A stretch of 37,475 nucleotides of DNA from Microcaldota archaeon (GTDB lineage Archaea; Micrarchaeota; Micrarchaeia; Micrarchaeales; CABMGC01), in contig JAKAUU010000031.1 of NCBI GenBank assembly GCA_021817505.1, positions 1-37,475 of the forward strand. The letters are read 5' to 3'. Numbering within the stretch: position 1 is the stretch's first letter; each line of letters starts with the position of its first letter. This document shows positions 11,025 through 26,065 of this stretch, one piece after another. Position numbers and translations under genes: made by a program. The notes beneath the pieces are model-generated. The model saw only the letters and a list, made by a program, of their open reading frames with translations, did not search any database and had not been told where the DNA came from.

Positions 11025-12095
11025 TCATACGGTCCTGTGGACTAAGAACTCTACAAGCTGATGCATCCTATTCTTTGCAGCAGATTCAGGAAGTATTTTA
11101 TCGACGTCATTCCATGCTTCGTTTATCATCTTTTCGGCAACATTTGAAGAGTATTCCTTTGATCCATACTTGTCTATTATGCTTATTGCTTCTTTTATCA
11201 GCGCCTTGTCCTTTGTATGCGTCTTGAGGATCTCTGCGAGCCTGTTTTTGTCTGCTTCGCTCCCGACCTTCATTACATGAAGCACCATTAAGGTTATCTT
11301 GCCTTCCGATATATCATCCCCTACGCCTCCTTTATTATCTGCAAGTTCGCTTTCAGTCAGGTTGAGTATATCGTCCTGTATCTGGAACGCTATGCCTATT
11401 GTAGCGCCAAATTTGCCAAGAGTGCTTATGGTTTTATCATCCGCCCCCGCCAGTGCACCGCCCAACTCGCACGCAAAACGAGAGAGTACTCCCGTCTTAT
11501 CATGTGCCATCTGCAGGTATTTTTCCTCAGTTATACTCTTTGGGTCTACAAGACCTGAGTGCCAGGCTATATCGATTGCCTGCCCAAGGGAGACTCTCGT
11601 CATGTTCTTTACGTATATTGATACGGCCCTGTTCTTCTTTTCATTATTAAGTTTTGGGCTATCTATCAGTGCAACCATCGGGAAGAAGTACATGAAGTCT
11701 CCGAGATTGGTCGCCACGTCTATCCCGAACTTAATGTGCAACGCATCCGCATTCCTTCGCTTTGGAGAGTTGTCCTCTATATCATCGTGTATCAGTGTTG
11801 CGTTGTGTATTACTTCAGGTATTATCGAGAATTCTATATATTCCTCCGGATCACTCCCCAAGGCTTCAAGGGTAAGCATGGTCAGAGCTGGCCTCCACCT
11901 CTTCCCTCCCAGGTCAAGCAGGTACCATGCAGGCTCAAGAATGCTCTTAGTCATGGCCTCAGGATCATATTCGTAGCTGCTCCTTCCAAGCAGGCTCTCT
12001 ATATACCTGCTTGACGACCTTTTCTTAAGATAGGTCTCAAGTTCCTGGTTTACCCTCTTTGAATTCTCTTTCAGATACTCTTCAAAATTATCCAT
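11025..12095 (-). CDS. Polyprenyl (geranylgeranyl/farnesyl) diphosphate synthase
   Basis: The enzyme chains isopentenyl units into the prenyl diphosphates used for archaeal lipids. The first Asp-rich motif is LIHDDIEDNSPKRR (DDxxD) with the basic pair after it. The second is FQIQDDILNLTE, with Asn in place of the last Asp (DDxxN). GGKRWRP near the N-terminus and GDDISEGKITLMVLHVM, with the conserved GDDI.EGK, near the C-terminus complete the family pattern. I start at ATG 12095 (MDNFEEYL); the track's TTG adds six residues. Chain length cannot be fixed from sequence alone: a Thr-Leu precedes the first DDxxD (NATLIHDD), with no bulky aromatic at the fifth position. Confidence 0.92.
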   Translation of the reverse strand: MDNFEEYLKENSKRVNQELETYLKKRSSSRYIESLLGRSSYEYDPEAMTKSILEPAWYLLDLGGKRWRPALTMLTLEALGSDPEEYIEFSIIPEVIHNATLIHDDIEDNSPKRRNADALHIKFGIDVATNLGDFMYFFPMVALIDSPKLNNEKKNRAVSIYVKNMTRVSLGQAIDIAWHSGLVDPKSITEEKYLQMAHDKTGVLSRFACELGGALAGADDKTISTLGKFGATIGIAFQIQDDILNLTESELADNKGGVGDDISEGKITLMVLHVMKVGSEADKNRLAEILKTHTKDKALIKEAISIIDKYGSKEYSSNVAEKMINEAWNDVDKILPESAAKNRMHQLVEFLVHRTV

Positions 12096-14316: not shown

Positions 14317-14436
14317 TGGCGGAGGGGAGATTTGAACACCCGATCTCTAGATTTCTAAGGTCATAGCCTAAAGGCTCATTACTCATCATGCTATGCATAT
14401 GAGTCTAGCGCTCTAACCAGGCTGAGCTACTCCGCC
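14317..14436 (-). tRNA. tRNA-Met(CAT) (or tRNA-Ile2) with 45-nt intron at 37/38
   Basis: The acceptor GGCGGAG/CTCCGCC is perfect, discriminator A, no encoded CCA. The D-stem is GCTC/GAGC, the anticodon stem CTAGA/TCTAG, and the anticodon CAT sits in loop CTCATA|A. A 45-nt intron (14397-14353) follows position 37; bulges TAT and AAA around CTCA/TTAG (one mismatch) give a relaxed bulge-helix-bulge, and CATAGC/GCTATG forms the intron helix. The T-stem GGGTG/CTCCC has one U-U mismatch (52-62). The AT-rich anticodon stem excludes the initiator, leaving elongator Met or lysidine/agmatidine-type Ile. The mature length is 75 nt. Confidence 0.9.
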
Positions 14437-24283: not shown

Positions 24284-24586
24284 CTAGATTGCATGCTCTT
24301 TCCTAAGCAGCTCCAGTTTCTTCTTGGCTCCGCCTTTTGCAGAGTAATTTCCTATACTTCCATCGGAGCGCACTACCCTGTGGCACGGGATCATTGGAGC
24401 AAGCGGATTTATCTTCATTACAGAGCCGACAGCTCTTGCAGCTCCCGGATATCCTGCCATTTCGGCAAGCTGTTTGTAGCTCCTGGTCTGGCCTTTAGGT
24501 ATTGAAAATGCGGCAAGAAGGACCTCTCTCTGAAAAGCAGTCAGCTGATATGCGCCCAGCTTCTTCTCGATCTCTTTTTGGTTTAT
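24284..24586 (-). CDS. ogt: Methylated-DNA-protein cysteine methyltransferase (MGMT/Ogt), no standard start codon
   Basis: Not in the ORF track. The reading frame immediately follows the secY stop, in the same frame, and encodes QKEIEKKLGAYQLTAFQREVLLAAFSIPKGQTRSYKQLAEMAG...RAVGSVMKINPLAPMIPCHRVVRSDGSIGNYSAKGGAKKKLELL. This is the complete alkyltransferase domain, with the PCHR active-site Cys, the Arg finger helix (ARAVG) and the GSIGNYSAKG loop. It repairs O6-alkylguanine. No ATG, GTG or TTG precedes the domain; the first ATG would delete half of it. AUA at 24586 has AAGGT six bases upstream, the same arrangement as dnaJ. The alternative is readthrough of the secY TAA. The gene is convergent with the transporter, one base between stops. 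Confidence 0.82.
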   Translation of the reverse strand: MNQKEIEKKLGAYQLTAFQREVLLAAFSIPKGQTRSYKQLAEMAGYPGAARAVGSVMKINPLAPMIPCHRVVRSDGSIGNYSAKGGAKKKLELLRKEHAI

Positions 24587-24595
24587 TGGATTACC
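24587..24595 (-). promoter_or_regulatory. Ribosome-binding site suggesting an AUA start for MGMT
   Basis: AAGGT overlaps the secY TAA and lies six bases before AUA 24586. In dnaJ, AAGGT lies six bases before AUG, and in dnaK seven before. This shared geometry argues for initiation at AUA rather than a decayed gene. Confidence 0.5.
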
Positions 24596-26065
24596 TTATG
24601 AAAGCATCTTGCTTATTCCAGGCATGCTCTCCAGGGACTTCTCCTGTTCAAGCTGTTTGTAAAGCATATACATTATCCCTACGGTAAGGAGGACGCCCAT
24701 CCCGGTTCCTACAGCGCCTGTCAGCGTTGCCAATGCGGCCAATAATCCTACGAATATGCTGCCCAGTATGGTTATAGTGGGTATATACTTGTTGAGGACA
24801 TTCTCGGTTATCCTCGGATCCCTTCTGAATCCAGGTATCTGCCATCCTACTCCCTGCAGCTGCTCGGCAACGTTCTTGGGGCTCTGTCCAGTCATCTCTA
24901 TCCAGAATCTCCCGAATATTATGCAGAGCACTATCAGCACAAGCGTGTATGTGATTATGTGCACCCATTCAGGCACCTGTATCAGTCCCCCAGTAGGAAG
25001 ATACAGCGGACTTGTCGATGTAGCAAGGAAGGTTACATAAGGGCCATAGCCACCTATCCCGCCGTATGTTGATGAATAAGGAAGCGGGAAGTTAGGCGAT
25101 ATCAGGTATATTATGCCTCCGGTAAGCTGGTTGGTCAGTCCTCCTGAAGTGGATGGAACCTTCTGGTAGAATGCAATGAAGTGTGCAAGCGGTGCCAGCC
25201 CTCCGGAAACTCCTGCGAGGAAGCCGAACCATACCGTAAGGCTGAGAACAAGCGAGGTTGCAAGTATTACAGGCAGCACGCTTACGTAAAGGAATGGTAT
25301 TGGAAGCCTTCCGCCTACGCCCCTAAGCTGGCTGAATGCGAGGGGCACCTCTACCGTTATGTCGTACGCGTATATGCTTACCAGCATTACGAGTATTGAG
25401 AAGAATAAAGGTCCGAATGCGAGTATTGCATTTGGCAGTGCTGCTGCACCTCCTGCAGCTATGGCCTGGACAGCTTCATTGCCCAGGATATTTATCGTTC
25501 CTGCTATTATCGAATATGCGACTCCTCCTGCTATGAAGAGGTTGATTCCTGATGTTAGGCCGTACTTGACCATCATCTCATCGAGGAAGATGACTATTAT
25601 GGCGCTTATTGCAAGCTGAAGCACTACCAGTCCGAAGAATGCCGGCGCTGCGACAGGGACATATCCCGTGAATGTGAATATGAATGATTCAGCTACTGCA
25701 ATCACTATCGCTGCAAGCTTCTGGATTGCCTGGAACCTGCCCTTCTGCTCAGGATCGTTCATGTCTATGTTGAATACACCTGATCCCTGAAGCAGCTGGA
25801 GTATTATGCTTGAAAGCACTATCGGGCCTATACCCACTGTTATCAGGGTGCCGGTCCTTGCTGCGAATATTACGTTGATCAGCTGGAGCACCGGCTGCTG
25901 CAGGGTAGCTATATTGACTCCGTATGCAGGAGTGCTGAACAGTATGAAGTATGCGCACATTATCGCGCCTGTCCACTTGAGCTTGTCCCTGAATGAGAGT
26001 GGCGAAGCTGGCTTCTTTATGCCAGGTATCAGCTTAAGCAGAGGGTCTAAGGATTTAATATTCAT
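24596..26065 (-). CDS. secY: Protein translocase subunit SecY
   Basis: This is the pore-forming subunit of the Sec translocon in the cytoplasmic membrane. At 489 residues with about ten helices it is normal archaeal size. Recognisable parts are the N-terminal FRDKLKWTGAIMCAYF, the plug region around TGTLITVGIGPIVLSSIILQLLQGSG, and the cytoplasmic ribosome-binding loop ending FGRFWIEMTGQSPKNVAEQLQGVGWQIPGFRRDPR. Its ATG overlaps the stop of the upstream V4R gene (ATGA), so the two are translationally coupled. secY usually closes a ribosomal-protein operon in archaea; here it is detached from it. The MGMT frame follows its stop directly. Confidence 0.97.
   Translation of the reverse strand: MNIKSLDPLLKLIPGIKKPASPLSFRDKLKWTGAIMCAYFILFSTPAYGVNIATLQQPVLQLINVIFAARTGTLITVGIGPIVLSSIILQLLQGSGVFNIDMNDPEQKGRFQAIQKLAAIVIAVAESFIFTFTGYVPVAAPAFFGLVVLQLAISAIIVIFLDEMMVKYGLTSGINLFIAGGVAYSIIAGTINILGNEAVQAIAAGGAAALPNAILAFGPLFFSILVMLVSIYAYDITVEVPLAFSQLRGVGGRLPIPFLYVSVLPVILATSLVLSLTVWFGFLAGVSGGLAPLAHFIAFYQKVPSTSGGLTNQLTGGIIYLISPNFPLPYSSTYGGIGGYGPYVTFLATSTSPLYLPTGGLIQVPEWVHIITYTLVLIVLCIIFGRFWIEMTGQSPKNVAEQLQGVGWQIPGFRRDPRITENVLNKYIPTITILGSIFVGLLAALATLTGAVGTGMGVLLTVGIMYMLYKQLEQEKSLESMPGISKMLS

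Follow-up and report, generated by a model that had tools for sequence, protein, structure and literature searches.

An intact O6-alkylguanine-DNA alkyltransferase gene stands directly behind secY in the window, as we call the whole stretch of 37,475 nucleotides analyzed here, and its ancestral ATG start codon reads ATA, a point change that is well supported in the sequence as it now stands. We tentatively favor, with a confidence just short of even, the explanation that ribosomes finishing secY initiate weakly at this AUA, and place it narrowly ahead of a recent loss of the start. The genome carrying the window (839 kb over 34 contigs, 84% complete) has Candidatus Micrarchaeota MAGs as its closest named relatives.

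The secY-alkyltransferase junction

After the secY stop codon the minus strand reads, 5' to 3', GGT AAT CCA ATA AAC CAA AAA GAG..., with a spacer of 9 nt between TAA and ATA and with both frames in phase (Table 1). According to the codon list of the frame, there is no in-frame ATG, GTG or TTG between the secY TAA and the alkyltransferase domain; the first canonical start in frame comes 42 codons past the start of the alignment with a relative's gene and lies inside the domain. The initial annotation had described an intact alkyltransferase frame in phase behind the secY TAA and lacking a usual start codon, and both the sequence and the PF01035 match agree with that description. It had also pointed out an AAGGT six bases before the ATA, as before a dnaJ gene, and the same motif is indeed found 6 nt before the ATG of a dnaJ-like gene (at about 5515, minus strand).

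Table 1 Features of the secY-alkyltransferase locus, in window coordinates
Feature	Position	Strand	Remarks
secY, upstream partner of the pair	24596..26065	minus	ORF of 489 aa; PF00344, 183.5 bits; NF006341
secY stop codon TAA	24596..24598	minus	Read from the sequence; stop also kept in congeners
AAGGT, Shine-Dalgarno-like, overlapping the secY stop	24593..24597	minus	Ends 6 nt before ATA
ATA in place of the ancestral ATG start	24584..24586	minus	Alignment with congeners, ATG in 5/5
Single-domain O6-alkylguanine-DNA alkyltransferase frame, ATA to TAG	24284..24586	minus	100 codons plus stop
Alkyltransferase stop codon TAG	24284..24286	minus	
ATC, in-frame codon 6, alternative near-cognate start	24569..24571	minus	Codon list
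CTG, in-frame codon 10, alternative near-cognate start	24557..24559	minus	Codon list
CTG, in-frame codon 15, alternative near-cognate start immediately ahead of the PF01035 domain	24542..24544	minus	Codon list
PCHR active-site motif, including the acceptor cysteine	24377..24388	minus	P67, C68, H69 and R70, invariant in 17 sequences

The encoded protein

The match to PF01035 scores 102.2 bits (cut-off 27) and covers model positions 1-80 of 81, so that the domain is complete, and TIGR00589 is matched at 88.8 against a cut-off of 46.4. Along with the PCHR residues and their acceptor cysteine, R51 and N60 are invariant across the 17 aligned sequences, and all 27 invariant columns of the alignment are retained in the window copy. 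The conserved Asn and Arg have roles in the O6-alkylguanine-DNA alkyltransferase family. The protein lacks the N-terminal domain of the two-domain architecture and is only 100 residues long, much like the aligned relatives; on domain content we therefore file it as a one-domain AGT-type protein and not as a typical two-domain AGT. A search of the host genome found no second alkyltransferase.

An AlphaFold2 model of the 100-residue protein has a mean pLDDT of 93.6 and includes an N-terminal helix at residues 3-11. In the alignment, residues 4-13 ahead of the domain resemble those of relatives (K4, E5, K9, L10 and Y13). Such relative-like residues and a confidently predicted helix are what would be expected if translation still begins at or near the ATA.

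The start region in relatives

An ATG stands exactly at the position of the ATA codon in all five same-genus genomes searched, and none of these congeners has an AUA start. The start change is thus a single-base substitution, in a single lineage, of the ancestral start codon, and the agreement of the congeners is beyond what chance would produce. The comparison of the junction in related genomes, which the initial annotation had proposed, accordingly places an ATG-to-ATA change at the ancestral start and confines it to the window genome. In all five congeners secY, 85-90% identical (for G003 the last 299 residues were compared), lies directly upstream of the alkyltransferase, with spacers from stop to ATG of 9 nt in G002, 7 in G003, 10 in G001, 8 in G005 and 7 in G004. 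Only G002 has secY and the alkyltransferase in phase; the other four congeners have them out of phase. The C-terminus of SecY is conserved among the congeners, ending in FLS or MLS (once ILS) before the stop.

In a wider search, an alkyltransferase match was obtained in 85 of 98 genomes, the window genome included, and was absent from 13 (6 of 49 among the better genomes); by gene content, the alkyltransferase is dispensable. We inspected the start regions of 78 loci (75 distinct), made up of 70 of the 86 genome-search matches, the 16 weakest being omitted, and the 8 archaeal loci, labelled Micrarchaeota or Marsarchaeota, among 27 further ones. An ATG precedes the domain in 73 of the 78 and only GTG or TTG in 4; the window gene alone lacks a canonical start there.

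Two further loci deserve mention. In another Micrarchaeota MAG (L007, 1655-1705) the alkyltransferase has ACG where its relative L009 has ATG, with a GTG 9 codons and an ATG 17 codons further in, the ATG only at the edge of the domain; L007 is counted among the 73 loci with an ATG. It is possible that this ACG is a sequence error, since the contig coverage given in the title is only 2.5. In G078 (C39:10647-10835) a weak alkyltransferase match contains four in-frame stops and may be a remnant or due to chance.

Signs of decay and selection

No stop or frameshift occurs within the 100 codons of the alkyltransferase frame. The initial annotation had held that relatives with a normal ATG, together with disabling mutations in this copy, would speak against its proposal; the ATG is there in the relatives, and the window copy carries no disabling mutation. 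Pairwise NG86 estimates between the window gene and the congeners give a low dN/dS, with dN of 0.17-0.24 and dS of 1.8-3.5 where computable, dS being saturated or undefined in several pairs. Amino-acid differences to six outgroups amount to 31-45 for the window protein and 30-48 for the congeners, of at most 99 positions, and an excess in rate of the window protein over the congeners was not seen with these outgroups. Judged from these comparisons, purifying selection acted on the alkyltransferase for the greater part of its branch, a signal that averages over the branch and is blind both to a recent loss and to the date of the ATA change.

Across 205 conserved genes (57,159 aligned codons) in the sampled part of the genome, we found neither an internal stop nor a frameshift, a check that bounds indel errors better than substitutions; three genes were flagged, two of them at the very ends and one as a shadow frame.

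Use of AUA in the host genome

We compared 357,966 bases of the host genome (about 43%, including the window) with 471,945 bases of the congener G005. Among 225 orthologous pairs, 217 have upstream stops on both sides, and in 168 a canonical start of the G005 gene lies close to where the alignment begins. In 17 of these 168 pairs the first canonical start of the host lies more than 5 codons past the start of the alignment. Inspection one at a time divided them into 15 at 6-14 codons, one shadow frame (a1498) and the alkyltransferase, at 42 codons; in our judgement the 15 are alignments extending upstream of the true start, some of them maybe shadow frames. No real case of an AUA start at another gene was found among the surveyed pairs. 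The putative AUA start is thus a singular event within a clean sample, and does not belong to a conserved or general system of non-AUG starts.

AUA is the commonest isoleucine codon (3983 of 5263), and the host genome has an intron-containing gene for tRNA-Ile(UAU) (C13:20357-20448). We rejected general AUA initiation or an altered code, since AUA is the dominant isoleucine codon, tRNA-Ile(UAU) is present and no other start-less gene occurs in the sample. In a sample of 40 genomes of the order, made up of the host and 39 relatives and with 21 of the 40 complete to 90% or more, none matched TiaS (PF08489), while the control genomes of M. jannaschii, H. volcanii, S. acidocaldarius and M. acetivorans did; AUA appears to be decoded without agmatidine in the host genome. 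Several further tRNAs of the host genome bear introns. One tRNA with an intron, in the window at 14317-14436 on the minus strand, was missed by ARAGORN, scores 55 bits and has CAU in its anticodon arm; it is probably an elongator tRNA-Met.

Shine-Dalgarno context

The AGGT within AAGGT pairs with the 16S tail GATCACCTC of the host genome, and the duplex energy of AAGGT, -4.0 kcal/mol, is about the median of 97 confident starts. Equal or stronger Shine-Dalgarno (SD) pairing is found at 48 of the 97 starts and at 21 of 97 when shuffled; motifs of at least 4 bases complementary to the 16S tail precede 45 of the 97, compared with 19% of shuffled controls. A stronger SD before the ATA, which might have compensated for the weaker codon, was not found by duplex energy. 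In the congeners the energy is slightly stronger in G002 and G005 and weak in G001, G003 and G004, so that the SD is not conserved in three of five and it is closeness to secY, and not a conserved SD, that the junctions have in common.

The matching 25-base stretch of the 16S tail is present in 18 of 21 genomes. The usual 16S tail is GCTGGATCACCTCC. The 3' end of the L118 16S gene (host contig C30, about 11305-11331) reads GCGGATAGATCACCTCAAAA, and the ATAGATCACCTC form occurs in 18 of 21 genomes; a second GGATCACCT lies about 20 nt downstream of the 16S 3' end in the host genome.

Proposed initiation at AUA and alternative explanations

Weak initiation at the AUA would have arisen by a single G-to-A transition, in one lineage, in the AUG of the downstream gene of the secY-alkyltransferase pair. 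Ribosomes terminating on secY, 9 nt upstream, would be held by the AAGGU across the stop codon and would restart at the AUA with initiator tRNA, tolerating a C-A mismatch at the third position. The alkyltransferase would still be produced, at a lower level, and a suicide repair protein is plausibly required in few copies, so that weak initiation could suffice. We infer here that the ATA base is real, that initiation takes place at the AUA, that it does so by termination-reinitiation, and that a low dose is sufficient.

In favor of AUA initiation count the ATG in all five congeners with secY adjacent at 7-10 nt and the intact body of the gene, as well as an SD-like site of median strength and the lack of a second alkyltransferase. 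In passages of PMC10666635, which concern an archaeon and a bacterium, genes -8 to +10 nt apart count as coupled and such a distance as a predictor of termination-reinitiation; both the 9 nt of the window and the 7-10 nt of the congeners fall into this range. The same passages describe a strong dependence of reinitiation on distance in Haloferax; they also present post-termination scanning as rare and overlaps as the usual coupled arrangement, which argues somewhat against a handover across 9 nt. For E. coli, the near-cognate AUU is quoted there as reaching about 0.3% of the AUG level. Several points count against AUA initiation: in Sulfolobus, aIF1 is described in excerpts of two papers as discriminating against non-canonical starts (PMC8211752, PMC6237735); AUA is unused as a start elsewhere in our sample and, as the commonest isoleucine codon, is read by tRNA-Ile(UAU); the SD is not strengthened, as compensation would predict; and the gene is dispensable. 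For the full combination, i.e. a natural archaeal protein starting at AUA through a handover of secY ribosomes over 9 nt, with an SD overlapping the stop, at low dose, and in a genome with tRNA-Ile(UAU) and no detectable TiaS, our assent is more guarded still.

A doubtful though credible competitor is that the AUG was mutated and the gene fell silent, or nearly so, too recently for further decay. The restriction of the ATA to one genome fits this, as do the 13 of 98 genomes with no alkyltransferase match, an SD with no compensating gain and the disuse of AUA as a start elsewhere in the sample. There is also a precedent, as excerpted from PMC11834397, in a spontaneous ATG-to-ATA SNP at the start of nadA in engineered strains of a model archaeon, taken to be Halobacterium salinarum from adjoining VNG gene names. 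Against it stand the lack of a second lesion in the 100 codons and of any broken gene among the 205 conserved genes sampled, so that a loss must be very recent, and it would be the sole one seen.

It is unlikely that the ATA is an error of the consensus or a minority strain variant in a population that has ATG. A single base differs in a single genome, and the assembly is incomplete (84%) and in 34 contigs; however, the site is interior to a 37 kb contig, and the assembly is clean of frameshifts and stops over the conserved genes, a result that again speaks to indels better than to substitutions.

Decidedly less probable is initiation at a downstream near-cognate codon, either AUC (codon 6) or one of the two CUGs (codons 10 and 15), which would shorten the protein slightly. 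The CUG at codon 15 stands immediately before the domain, where solved one-domain relatives begin (the matches of 3gva and 2kif open with chain residue 2 at profile position 14-16), but a start there would delete the confidently predicted helix with its relative-like residues, and the spacing of the AAGGT suits the ATA and not AUC or CUG.

Readthrough of the secY UAA into a SecY-alkyltransferase fusion, for which the phase of the frames in the window genome and in G002 could be cited, is very improbable in view of the four out-of-phase congeners, the conserved SecY end and stop, and the ordinary UAA. A fusion conserved across the genus is excluded, the frames being in phase in only one congener of five. 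Of the three options raised by the initial annotation, readthrough is thus disfavored, while AUA initiation and recent start loss both stand.

Were AUA initiation true, the gene would be an example from nature of an archaeon starting a protein at a codon that gene callers refuse, and would allow start-codon stringency during reinitiation to be tested; if the start was recently lost, or the base is wrong, the case is ordinary. Under every reading, a gene search limited to ATG, GTG and TTG would overlook an intact repair gene here.

Comparison with known systems

No demonstrated archaeal AUA start was found in the open-licence literature consulted, the nadA SNP being the only related case. As excerpted from PMC11834397, that SNP is the same base change at an archaeal start codon; it is a mutation of laboratory strains, whereas the window gene belongs to a natural genome and is coupled behind secY. 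In known prokaryotic non-AUG starts (GUG, UUG, rarely CUG and AUU) an ancestral AUG has given way to a weaker codon, as at the window gene. According to the tally excerpted from PMC5622118, of 61,358 AUG starts 363 switched to GUG, 113 to UUG, 2 to CUG and 1 to AUU; AUA is missing from this excerpted tally, and the AUA of the window is a putative start. Switches beyond GUG and UUG being so few, a functional AUA would be rare, and gene callers also hide such cases.

The window protein resembles alkyltransferase-like proteins (ATLs), e.g. 3gva, in size and one-domain layout. In ATLs, as stated in PMC7216122, Trp replaces the acceptor Cys, whereas the window protein has Cys68 and is thus set apart from them. 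With the AGT/MGMT/Ogt family (PF01035) it shares a complete DNA-binding and active-site domain with PCHR, and solved structures of MGMT, Ogt and Ada gave matches to it; it differs from the family in having no N-terminal domain and about 100 residues, as do the aligned relatives.
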